From a bacterium (lineage in GTDB: Bacteria; Margulisbacteria; Marinamargulisbacteria; GCA-2716485; GCA-002719695): a DNA stretch of 45,490 nt. The number at the start of each line of letters is the position of its first letter. The first letter of the stretch is position 1. The notes beneath the pieces were generated by a model. It was not told the origin of the DNA. It was given only the letters and a program-made list of their open reading frames with translations, and ran no database searches. The position numbers and the translations under genes are program-made. Location: contig PBBX01000036.1 in NCBI GenBank assembly GCA_002716725.1, positions 1-45,490 on the forward strand, read 5' to 3'. Shown piece after piece: positions 31,202 through 37,652 of this stretch.

Positions 31202-31217
31202 TGATTCACGTGAAACA
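31202..31217. promoter_or_regulatory. parS site with one mismatch
   Basis: TGATTCACGTGAAACA differs from the consensus TGTTTCACGTGAAACA at one position. It lies 4.8 kb from parA and 8 kb from the dnaA-proximal box cluster, within the range usual for ParB-binding sites. Confidence 0.75.
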
Positions 31218-34069: not shown

Positions 34070-35179
34070 TTAGTGCTGGGTGCTTACCCATGATGGGTCA
34101 AAGCTTGACCATTTCATAGAGCTTACTCTGCATTTTCGTTCAGAATTTTCGCTTTTAAATTCTATTACGCCATCCATGATATATTTAACATTATTTAGGG
34201 TTGTCTCATCGACAGTCCCTTCTTCTAATACAAATAATGTTGTTACGCCGCCAAATGCCACGCCAGTCCTGGCGATTTGATTTAAGAATCGTTGGGTTGC
34301 GCCCAGCTCGAAGCTAATTAATAGGCTGGATATGGAGTCTATTAGGCGTCTTCCTCCTTGTTTTGTCTGAATGCTTTGGCCTATTTCATTGCTTGCGTCG
34401 GATATTATTCCTGCCAGTTGGTTTAGTTCTAATGTGCCTGATACAGCGAATTTTTCGTTTTCATTTGGTGTTAATGATGACCATGAGTAGGCATCTATAA
34501 ATCTTAATAGATTTTCTTTTTCATATTTTTCGGTTGTTATTTTTGGGTTTTCTTCTAATTTCTTCCTTGTTTTTTTTGGGTCGTCGTCTATGGCTATTAT
34601 GAGAGAGCTAGCTTTGTTTAGTAATCCTTTTGTAATGAAGTTTCGGCAAAATGTTGATTTTCCTGAGCCGGTTTCTCCTACTATGAGGATGTTTGATCCC
34701 ACGGGAATGCCTCCTTTAAGGGAGTTGTCTAGCTCAGGGTTTCCTGTGCTGCAGTATCGTGTTTCACGTGAAACACGATTTGTGGGGAGGGGAGCTGCTT
34801 TTTTCTTAGATTGAAATTTTTCTATTAATGTTTGTGATCGTGCTTTTAAGTCTTCTACATTAAAGGGTTTGATTATATAGTCGTCTGCGCCTTCTTCGAA
34901 GCCTGTTAGTTTGTTGTATTCATCTCCTAGTGCTGATAATAGGATGATAGGGGTTTCTTCTAGGGATGTTTCTTTTCGTATTCGCTTGCATACTTCGAAT
35001 CCATTTACTTTTGGCATGACGATATCAGATATGATTAAGTCAGGCTTTTCTTTTAGGGCAAGCGAGATGGCTTCTTCTCCGTTTTCTGCGGAGAATATGG
35101 TTGCGTCAAGGTCTCTTAGCATGATTTCTAGTAACGTTAATATGTTTGTTTCGTCGTCTGCGATAACTATTTTTGTCAT
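34070..35179 (-). CDS. Response regulator fused to a KaiC-like RecA ATPase domain
   Basis: Length is 369 residues. Residues 1-120 are a complete receiver domain: acidic D8 and D9, phospho-acceptor D52 in LIISDIVMP, S82 in IILLSALGD and K104 in YIIKPF. A short linker (~121-145) contains NRVSRETR, encoded by a parS palindrome. The remainder is a KaiC-like RecA domain with Walker A VGETGSGKST and a Walker B-type strand RRLIDSISSLLI. The pair of catalytic glutamates after the second strand in KaiC proteins is replaced by IAIDDDP, so ATPase activity may be altered. The C-terminus (DGVIEFKSENSERKCRVSSMKW) has the usual KaiC-type ending strands. It starts 2 bp after the companion KaiC-like gene. The cognate kinase is not evident nearby. 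Confidence 0.85.
   Translation of the reverse strand: MTKIVIADDETNILTLLEIMLRDLDATIFSAENGEEAISLALKEKPDLIISDIVMPKVNGFEVCKRIRKETSLEETPIILLSALGDEYNKLTGFEEGADDYIIKPFNVEDLKARSQTLIEKFQSKKKAAPLPTNRVSRETRYCSTGNPELDNSLKGGIPVGSNILIVGETGSGKSTFCRNFITKGLLNKASSLIIAIDDDPKKTRKKLEENPKITTEKYEKENLLRFIDAYSWSSLTPNENEKFAVSGTLELNQLAGIISDASNEIGQSIQTKQGGRRLIDSISSLLISFELGATQRFLNQIARTGVAFGGVTTLFVLEEGTVDETTLNNVKYIMDGVIEFKSENSERKCRVSSMKWSSFDPSWVSTQH
34757..34780. promoter_or_regulatory. parS site inside the response-regulator-KaiC gene
   Basis: The exact consensus TGTTTCACGTGAAACA lies at 34761-34776. The palindrome is perfect over 24 bp (34757-34780), with ATCG and CGAT extending both arms. It falls in the interdomain linker codons ~134-141 of the gene. 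Confidence 0.92.
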
Positions 35180-35181
35180 AT

Positions 35182-35937
35182 TTATAGTGCTTGTCTTAAT
35201 ACAATGCCTCTGTTGGGAAGGATTTCAAAGCTATACTCGGATAGGTCGATGCGGGTTCCTCTCATTTTTCGAATGGATATGGTCCTGATTCGTTTGTTGC
35301 TTTGTGGGAGTAGCTTGAGGTGGATAATGCCTGATGATGCAAATTCTTCTATTCCAAAAAAACTGACCTTGTTTGATCCTACAGGTATATATGAGGTTAG
35401 TAGGGTTGTGCAGTTTTCTATTGATTCGATTTCAAAGATTAATGATCGGATATATTCAATTACGTCAGGGATGGTGGTGTCGGTTAGGATGAGTGGGGCT
35501 ATGGGGTCTATTACGATTCGTGTTGGGTTAATTGATTTTATATAGTCGGTTATTTTGCTTACGATTAACTTGTAATCCAGTGTGTTTCCTTCTTTGTCTT
35601 TGCTTGAGCCAAAGTAATTGGTTATGTCGATTATGTTTAGGCTTTCGTTTTGGAGGTGGTGTTGTAAGTCCCATCCTAGAGCGCGTGCATCGTTTATAAC
35701 ATGTTCGGGTTTTTCGTCTATGGATATATAGATGGTTTTTTCGTTATGTTTAAGACCTTCTAGAAGAAATTGTAGAGAGAGTATGGTTTTTCCTGTCCCG
35801 GGTTCTCCGGATATTAGGTAGGATTTTCCGGTTGGGAAGCCTCCGTATGTAAGTTGATCGAGGCCTTCTATGCCAGATTTTGTTCTTGTTTGTTCTTTTG
35901 TTTTGTTTTGCATGAGTATAGTTTTACTATAATTCAT
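35182..35937 (-). CDS. Single-domain KaiC-like ATPase
   Basis: A 251-residue RecA-fold protein of the KaiC family. It begins with a family-typical TRTKSGIEGLDQLTYGGFPTG. Walker A is SGEPGTGKTILSLQFL at ~43-58, and the glutamate-bearing loop is IYISIDEKPEHV. Walker B is TRIVIDPIAPLIL, and the C-terminal strands are RTISIRKMRGTRIDLSEYSFEI. Only one of KaiC's two tandem domains is present. It is the first gene of a two-gene unit with the receiver-KaiC fusion and is divergent from parA. Single-domain KaiC homologues act as signal-transduction ATPases; a circadian role should not be assumed, and no KaiA or KaiB is seen. Confidence 0.88.
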   Translation of the reverse strand: MNYSKTILMQNKTKEQTRTKSGIEGLDQLTYGGFPTGKSYLISGEPGTGKTILSLQFLLEGLKHNEKTIYISIDEKPEHVINDARALGWDLQHHLQNESLNIIDITNYFGSSKDKEGNTLDYKLIVSKITDYIKSINPTRIVIDPIAPLILTDTTIPDVIEYIRSLIFEIESIENCTTLLTSYIPVGSNKVSFFGIEEFASSGIIHLKLLPQSNKRIRTISIRKMRGTRIDLSEYSFEILPNRGIVLRQAL

Positions 35938-36007
35938 CCACTTTTTACTTGCAAGCAGTTCTTATTTGTTTATTTTATTAATTTGTGGTGCTATTATTGT
36001 GTTAGAT

Positions 36008-36784
36008 ATGTCTGGGTTGTCTTATGTTATTTCTATATCTAATCAGAAGGGTGGTGTTGGTAAAACGACTACGGCCATAAACTTGGCTTCTTTTCTTTCG
36101 GTTGAAAGCAAGCGTGTTTTGCTTGTCGATTTAGATCCCCAGTCAAATGCTACTTCAGGTGTTGGGGTTGATCACGATCGATTAAATGGGGATGTTTATG
36201 ATGCCTTAACTAAAAAGAAGCCTGTTTCTGACTGTATTTATCCTACCGCATTTGATAGTCTTCATATTTTACCTTCAACACAAAATCTTGCTGCTTTGGA
36301 GTTAGAGTTGGTAGAGCATGTTTCACGTGAAACATACTTAAAGGAGTTGTTAAAGCCTTTAAAGGATGTTTATGATTTTATTATTGTGGACTGCCCTCCA
36401 TCGTTAGGGCTTTTAACATTAAATGGCTTGGTTGCCTCTGATTACGTTTTAATTCCTGTTCAATGTGAATATTTTGCTTTAGAGGGGATTTCTCATTTGG
36501 TAAGCACATTAGAAAATGTTCGCTTGCATTTGAATCCTGATTTAGAAATTGCGGGCATATTATTAACGATGTTTGATCGACGGACTGCTTTAAATAGAGA
36601 GGTTGTTGATAATGCGCGGCGTTTTTTTAAGCGGTTAGTATTTCAAACTATTGTTCCAAGAAATATAAAGTTAACAGAAGCCCCTAGTCATGGTATTCCT
36701 ATATTATTATATCAGCCTAATTGTGCTGGTTCGGAAGCATATTTAGATTTAACAAAGGAGGTTATGAATCGTGTCAAAAAATGA
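36008..36784 (+). CDS. parA: ParA chromosome-partitioning ATPase
   Basis: A Walker-type ATPase that moves ParB-parS complexes, ~258 residues. The start MSGLSYVISISNQKGGVGKTTT places the deviant Walker A KGGVGKTT at the usual position near residue 15. An upstream in-frame ATG at 35966 would add 14 mostly hydrophobic residues, so I prefer 36008. Other motifs are LLVDLDPQSNATSGVG, FIIVDCPPSLGLLTLNGL, QCEYFALEGISHLV and EAPSHGIPI. The gene overlaps parB by 14 bp. A perfect parS lies inside it. Confidence 0.97.
   Translation: MSGLSYVISISNQKGGVGKTTTAINLASFLSVESKRVLLVDLDPQSNATSGVGVDHDRLNGDVYDALTKKKPVSDCIYPTAFDSLHILPSTQNLAALELELVEHVSRETYLKELLKPLKDVYDFIIVDCPPSLGLLTLNGLVASDYVLIPVQCEYFALEGISHLVSTLENVRLHLNPDLEIAGILLTMFDRRTALNREVVDNARRFFKRLVFQTIVPRNIKLTEAPSHGIPILLYQPNCAGSEAYLDLTKEVMNRVKK
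36318..36335. promoter_or_regulatory. parS site inside parA
   Basis: TGTTTCACGTGAAACA is an exact consensus match at 36319-36334, flanked by A and T to give an 18-bp perfect palindrome. It encodes the peptide VSRET in ParA at about residue 106, the same peptide as in the neighbouring response-regulator-KaiC protein. Confidence 0.95.
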
Positions 36785-37652
36785 AAAACAAATATCTAAG
36801 TTAGGGCGAGGCCTTGATGCTGTTTTTGGGCGTTCTTTTGTTGGGGGTGGTAGGACTATTGTAGAAATTCCTGTTGAAAAGATAAAGGCAAATGACTATC
36901 AGCCTCGTACGATGTTTGATGAGTCTGCTTTAAATAAGTTGATTAACTCAATTAATAAAAATGGGTTGGCTCAACCTATTTTGGTAAGGCCTCTTGATGG
37001 AGGCTTTTACGAATTAATTGCAGGAGAGCGGCGTCTAAGAGCATGTCGAATGGCGGGGTTTAAAGCCGTTCCTGCTATAATAAAGGATGTTTCTAATTTA
37101 GAATCTCTGCAGTTAGCGTTAGTTGAAAATTTAGATCGTGAGGATTTAAATGCGTTAGAAGAGGCAGAGGGATATCAGCGTTTAATTTCTGAGTTTAACT
37201 ATACGCATAGTATGATTGCTGATTTGTTTGGGAAGAGTCGATCTGCTGTTACAAATTTGTTGAGGCTTATTTCATTGCCTGATAATGTAAAGAGTGCAAT
37301 TCAGCATAATTTGATTTCAGAAGGTCATGCAAGGGCTCTTTTGGGATTGGATAATAAAGCTAATATTGGGGATTTATTAAAGCAGATTATAGATGATAGA
37401 TTAAGTGTTCGAGATGTTGAAAATAAGGTTGCTTCTTTCAATAATCAAACAGAGCAGTTATCGATGTTGTCTTCTGAGGAAGAGGTTGTTATTGATAAGC
37501 ATATGCCATTTTTTGATCGTATCAAGACGAATTGTTTGGAAAAAGGGGTAACGGTTAAATGCTCTGGGTCTATTAAAAAAGGACGTGTTTCTTTTTCTTA
37601 TTCATCAGAAGATGAGTTATATAAACTGGTAGATTTGTTTTCTCCTAAATAG
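36771..37652 (+). CDS. parB: ParB partition protein (parS-binding CTPase)
   Basis: Length is 293 residues, from a GTG start preceded by a near-perfect Shine-Dalgarno (AAAGGAGGT, 36754-36762) inside the end of parA. The N-terminal LGRGLDAVFG box for ParA interaction is followed by the CTPase domain: VEKIKANDYQPRTMFDESAL, GLAQPILVRP and the ELIAGERRLRACRMAG motif. The helix-turn-helix region is HSMIADLFGKSRSAVTNLLRLISLP with ISEGHARALLG. A C-terminal dimerisation domain ends the protein. It works with parA and the parS sites at 31.2, 34.8 and 36.3 kb to segregate the origin region. It converges with rsmG, overlapping by 8 bp. Confidence 0.97.
   Translation: MSKNEKQISKLGRGLDAVFGRSFVGGGRTIVEIPVEKIKANDYQPRTMFDESALNKLINSINKNGLAQPILVRPLDGGFYELIAGERRLRACRMAGFKAVPAIIKDVSNLESLQLALVENLDREDLNALEEAEGYQRLISEFNYTHSMIADLFGKSRSAVTNLLRLISLPDNVKSAIQHNLISEGHARALLGLDNKANIGDLLKQIIDDRLSVRDVENKVASFNNQTEQLSMLSSEEEVVIDKHMPFFDRIKTNCLEKGVTVKCSGSIKKGRVSFSYSSEDELYKLVDLFSPK

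Follow-up and report, generated by a model that had tools for sequence, protein, structure and literature searches.

A gene for a single-domain KaiC-type ATPase, followed directly by a gene in which a phospho-receiver is fused to a KaiC domain (REC-KaiC), forms a conserved unit that recurs across several bacterial phyla. We consider it moderately likely that the two genes form an output module of two-component signalling, in which phosphorylation of the receiver would set the state of a KaiC-type ring, mostly together with the neighbouring KaiC. The pair lies in the window (the whole stretch of 45,490 nucleotides analysed, contig PBBX01000036.1), which comes from a Margulisbacterium genome of 1.26 Mb (81% complete). 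The features of the pair and of its surroundings are the following:

35182-35937, minus strand: KaiC gene, 251 aa, single-domain KaiC-type ATPase (Pfam KaiC PF06745, 1.7e-63)
34070-35179, minus strand: REC-KaiC gene, 369 aa, receiver-KaiC fusion
35024-35026, minus strand: codon of the receiver phospho-acceptor D52 of REC-KaiC (companions D8/D9, S82 and K104), from the motif table and the orthologue alignment
34583-34588, minus strand: codons of D198-D199 of REC-KaiC, at the position of the catalytic Glu doublet (same two sources)
34109-34117, minus strand: codons of M355-K356-W357 of REC-KaiC, at the position of the KxRG finger (same two sources)
34760-34775, no strand assigned: parS inside the REC-KaiC linker (encodes VSRET), an exact palindrome, context only and outside the module
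35966-36784, plus strand: parA, divergent neighbour, context only (Pfam AAA_31, 1.5e-66)
36771-37652, plus strand: parB, after parA, context only (Pfam ParB_N and HTH_ParB)

Both open reading frames, and their position beside the segregation genes and divergent from parA, agree with the earlier sequence-only reading of this DNA. Each gene carries one KaiC domain, which exceeds the PF06745 cut-off and has both Walker A and Walker B motifs; the double-domain CI+CII architecture is absent according to Pfam. In REC-KaiC, the Response_reg domain spans residues 4-114 (5.4e-27) and the KaiC domain residues 144-351 (9.2e-27). The two genes, separated by 2 bp, run away from parA-parB and convergently with purA. 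The AF2 model of REC-KaiC (mean pLDDT 79.9, pTM 0.54) supports both predicted folds, but not how they sit relative to each other. In a Foldseek search, this model matched KaiC and the receiver of RpaA (39% identity and 1.4 Å for the receiver).

A canonical REC-KaiC is found in 26 of the 56 Margulisbacterial genomes, and a divergent form in 3 more, all from family f8. In all 29 loci of the phylum (26 canonical, 3 divergent) KaiC is placed directly upstream of REC-KaiC; the adjacency table contains 26 Margulisbacterial rows (23 canonical, 3 divergent), each of them same-strand, to which G004, G007 and G015 were added from separate searches. The gaps in this table range from -20 to +85 bp, and are mostly between -8 and +7. 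Outside the phylum, KaiC is upstream of REC-KaiC on the same strand in 9/15 loci, which belong to 'Deltaproteobacteria' (7), Methylomirabilis, and one proteobacterium. The sequence-only reading had allowed for refutation by a lack of co-occurrence beyond close relatives, which the recurrence in several phyla averts. The distance matrices of KaiC and REC-KaiC correlate with r = 0.909 over 23 loci (a statistic that ignores the species tree), a value no lower than the 0.887 for the two fused domains. In plasmid records, REC-KaiC was not found at a cover of at least 80%.

REC-KaiC occurs without an adjacent KaiC in five planctomycetes and one Chloroheliaceae. In each planctomycete genome it is the sole strong KaiC match, with the other matches at the level of RadA and further P-loop ATPases, and thus the pairing is not obligatory. 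A histidine kinase, a single REC and REC-KaiC suffice there, as expected if REC-KaiC regulated on its own, binding nucleotide and switched by phosphorylation, and the KaiC next to it were an independent, co-regulated ATPase. This reading is unlikely in our view, given that the two genes nearly overlap and are inherited together in every Margulisbacterial locus and in the 9 loci outside the phylum.

In the KaiC tree (midpoint root, with some long branches) all REC-KaiC domains fall into a single clade (100/100) that contains neither the single KaiC nor CI or CII of clock KaiC, and the 'Deltaproteobacterial' and Methylomirabilis pairs cluster together in both halves. Like cyanobacterial KaiABC and other KaiBC systems, the pair has the RecA/KaiC fold, a single KaiC that is closest to CI, and kinase and receiver components around it. 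Unlike them, it consists of two one-domain genes without KaiB and without CII-like phospho-sites, the receiver is fused to the ATPase, and the fusion stands in its separate clade. KaiB was not found in the source genome and is present in 1/52 relatives (G031), beside a separate double-domain KaiC. The absence of KaiB and the separate clade rule out a KaiABC clock, and a split CI/CII was rejected since REC-KaiC does not join CII in the tree. At the G031 locus (L097, G031:C58), the double-domain KaiC is followed by KaiB, apart from the REC-KaiC pair of the same Margulisbacterium genome.

A KaiC hub or slow timer was also considered, in which KaiC and REC-KaiC share one hexameric or double ring (as an analogue of a split CI/CII), with the receiver as input and a kinase-like output that reads the ring as SasA reads KaiC. 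The order of the genes mirrors CI then CII, the single KaiC resembles CI most, and a pseudo-receiver/pseudo-kinase (described below) lies downstream in 6/7 'Deltaproteobacterial' clusters and in L133. Nevertheless, we regard a hub or timer as rather improbable, as REC-KaiC is outside the CII group, 51/52 genomes are devoid of KaiB, and the segment that holds the phospho-sites in clock KaiC reads LNN here, with no conservation of Ser/Thr.

In respect to the active sites, the KaiC of the window shows Walker A (GEPGTGKT), Walker B (RIVIDP), the catalytic loop ISIDEKP (D74-E75), and the trans-acting finger K224-M-R226-G. In clock KaiC the glutamate doublet at this place is catalytic (PMC6989803), and in its CI domain R226 holds the lytic water (PMC6378743); as clock KaiC has E-E there, the IDEKP loop retains the second glutamate alone. 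The loop of REC-KaiC reads IDDDP, with Asp (D198-D199) at both catalytic Glu positions. Both motifs are those given by the sequence-only reading, and the contrast between them is present and fixed, but its description of the KaiC loop as apparently intact has to be narrowed to one of the two glutamates.

According to the motif table, KaiC of the two-gene loci nearly always has [IV]DE[KR]P, together with Walker A, Walker B and K-[MI]-R-G; the [IV]DE[KR]P loop is different in f8 and L133, and slightly so in L081. In REC-KaiC, Walker A and B are preserved, with D-D at the Glu place and a near-invariant MKW at the place of the finger. The D-D doublet is common to all canonical Margulisbacterial REC-KaiC and to nearly all of those outside the phylum (DE in L133 and L135). 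D198 is invariant and D199 at least 90% conserved in orthologue set A2, and in the orthologue alignment K356 and W357 are invariant, with M355 conserved to at least 90%. Because D-D is kept across the REC-KaiC orthologues, the contrast is due neither to chance nor to decay. When a catalytic Glu doublet with a K-x-R finger is taken as the reference, REC-KaiC has neither (D-D, MKW), and KaiC has D-E and KMRG. As far as sequence can tell, this fixed change suggests that REC-KaiC is a switch that binds nucleotide and hydrolyses it weakly.

Families f19 and f23 have a degenerate upstream KaiC, and REC-KaiC is followed there by a third KaiC with E-E and KMRG, as would be expected if one of the subunits has to be competent. 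Family f8 is contrary to a strict rule of this kind, as both its KaiC and its REC-KaiC have degenerate catalytic sites; this pair possibly consists of two non-hydrolysing subunits. The planctomycetes, with REC-KaiC as their sole KaiC-type protein, depart from such a rule as well, and these two cases also count against a hetero-hexamer, as considered in the sequence-only reading. The three-gene KaiC, REC-KaiC, KaiC clusters (L084:8000-10557, L078:6020-8569) are located by hisZ-hisG-like genes and are divergent from a FapA gene. In the divergent f8 pairs (L090:5020-6749, L091, L095) the loop of KaiC reads IDKKP, and KxRG is missing.

The receiver residues D9, D52 and K104 are invariant in 20 diverse orthologues, and the set of acidic pair, Asp52, Ser/Thr and Lys is complete in every receiver except that of L095 (motif table). 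The planctomycete operons have the order of a kinase with an intact H-box (SHELRTPL), a single REC, and REC-KaiC in 5/5 cases. L126, L129 and L130 have an Amt domain as the sensor of the kinase, and L132 has a protoglobin; the sensor of L131 is unseen, as the sequence ends before it. Along these operons (L126:3524-8675, L129:4171-8678, L132:5134-8681), Amt-PAS or protoglobin-PAS kinases are found, with the sensor swapped and the output kept. In Methylomirabilis, an HK-REC-REC set is placed just upstream of the pair. An intact candidate kinase is linked to REC-KaiC in planctomycetes and Methylomirabilis, and in Margulisbacteria co-occurrence is the sole link. The control by phosphorylation proposed in the sequence-only reading is judged likely, given a canonical receiver and the operon linkage to intact histidine kinases in other phyla.

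The source genome (G000) is poor in signalling proteins, with four receivers and three kinases; the remaining HATPase matches resemble gyrB and mutL. The kinase on G000:C28 (transmembrane-HAMP-PAS-HisKA, with H441) is an orphan, with no regulator beside its gene. Its relatives at 226 bits or more are present in 17/19 same-class genomes with REC-KaiC vs 1/8 without (p = 3e-4), and by family in 11/11 vs 1/6 (p = 1e-3), a co-occurrence that is confounded, and as evidence weakened, by shared ancestry and by contigs missing from incomplete genomes. Two other proteins of this genome (L146:4197-5336, 379 aa, and L147:2450-4381, 643 aa) have a receiver at residues ~180-289 and an N-terminal part without a clear Pfam domain.

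Directly downstream of the pair, in 6/7 'Deltaproteobacterial' clusters and in L133, lies a gene whose product combines a pseudo-receiver with a likely coiled coil and with a kinase core in which the H-box His is replaced by Glu, Asp or Gln. It resembles a kinase in Pfam, but the alignment shows the replacement; therefore it cannot be the phosphodonor and would instead be an adaptor. The ATP-binding core of this family is kept (L121:4656-6017, L122:6089-7309, and L133:8600-9757, plus strand).

The exact parS sequence TGTTTCACGTGAAACA occurs at 34760, in the linker of REC-KaiC, and at 36319 (36319-36334), inside parA. With up to 3 mismatches, 4 sites were found vs 0.26 expected by chance. A site with one mismatch is located at 31202-31217, and the parS sites are inside coding sequence. 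The linker site recurs, exactly or nearly so, in L068 and L069, relatives from the same genus, and is absent from REC-KaiC elsewhere, being confined to genus g1. An accessory role in chromosome segregation, with the pair sensing or controlling ParABS, would agree with this site and with the divergent arrangement of the pair and parA; CpaE- and MipZ-like systems offer precedents of REC or ParA-type ATPases at the poles. Nonetheless, parA is next to the pair in no more than 7/26 canonical loci, which belong to three families (f1, f2, f13), and it is a less common neighbour than purA, which flanks the opposite side of about 11 canonical loci. Elsewhere the neighbours vary and include ruvCA, hisZ-hisG-aroA-hisD, FapA, and nucleotidyltransferase genes (the identities of hisZ, hisG, aroA, hisD and ruvCA were assigned by eye from the sequences and the window cluster). 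Among the neighbours examined in other phyla, no parAB was found beside the pair. The parAB adjacency is incidental: a functional tie to parABS is not supported by the gene neighbourhood, and with such variable neighbours we rejected the link to segregation as highly improbable. Anti-phage defence was set aside as well, since PADLOC gave just weak P-loop matches.

In the module that we favour, a histidine kinase, which in Margulisbacteria is probably the unlinked HAMP-PAS kinase, would phosphorylate Asp52 in the receiver of REC-KaiC. Phosphorylation would then switch the RecA/KaiC-type domain, which is predicted to bind nucleotide, as Walker A and B are kept. With D-D at the catalytic position and K-W in the finger, its hydrolysis is expected to be slow or absent. 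In the majority of carrier lineages the switch domain would cooperate with the neighbouring, catalytically better-equipped KaiC; REC-KaiC probably joins or stacks on the KaiC ring, and the phosphorylation of the receiver would set the assembly or the ATPase state of the ring, which would then act on a partner. Tentatively, the module may be a phosphorylation-gated ring of two kinds of subunits, with hydrolysis-deficient REC-KaiC inserting into, or stacking on, an active KaiC ring when the kinase fires. Such a ring would be a KaiB-free relay or slow timer that turns a two-component signal into a ring state.

Among solved proteins, the closest in sequence to the ATPase domain of REC-KaiC is PH0284, an archaeal single-domain KaiC-like protein (5e-13). 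PH0284, PH0186 and SSO2452 also match the single KaiC, more distantly; they are stand-alone proteins without a receiver, unlike REC-KaiC. PMC5847659, which cites Makarova et al. 2017, describes KaiC-REC fusions and gives only six Methanosarcinaceae genera as carriers; like REC-KaiC, these fusions join a KaiC-family ATPase to a receiver of two-component signalling. The Margulisbacterial protein differs in being bacterial, in its REC-KaiC order, in the second KaiC gene, and in the fixed D-D and MKW, with the archaeal side of this comparison known by description only. In the case of the planctomycete operons, at least 3/5 begin with an Amt-PAS-HisKA kinase of the kind of the ammonium-sensor kinase Ks-Amt5, for which the available part of PMC5764959 names no specific cognate regulator. 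REC-KaiC is not supported as the regulator of Kuenenia Ks-Amt5 itself, since it was found in just 5/62 genomes of that order. A literature search, with many subscription papers outside its scope, found neither the term 'REC-KaiC' nor a paper linking KaiC to Margulisbacteria. The pair seems to be a so far undescribed kind of two-component output; REC-fused KaiC as such is known from Methanosarcinaceae.

KaiC-family ATPases are parts of the clock in cyanobacteria and proposed signalling hubs in archaea. The planctomycete operons point to ammonium or a haem-bound gas as the likely input, so that the system can be tested with purified proteins. If the favoured reading is true, two-component signals would reach KaiC rings directly and without KaiB, by way of a bacterial receiver-KaiC family whose active site is altered and fixed, which usually has a KaiC partner and which is linked to sensor kinases.
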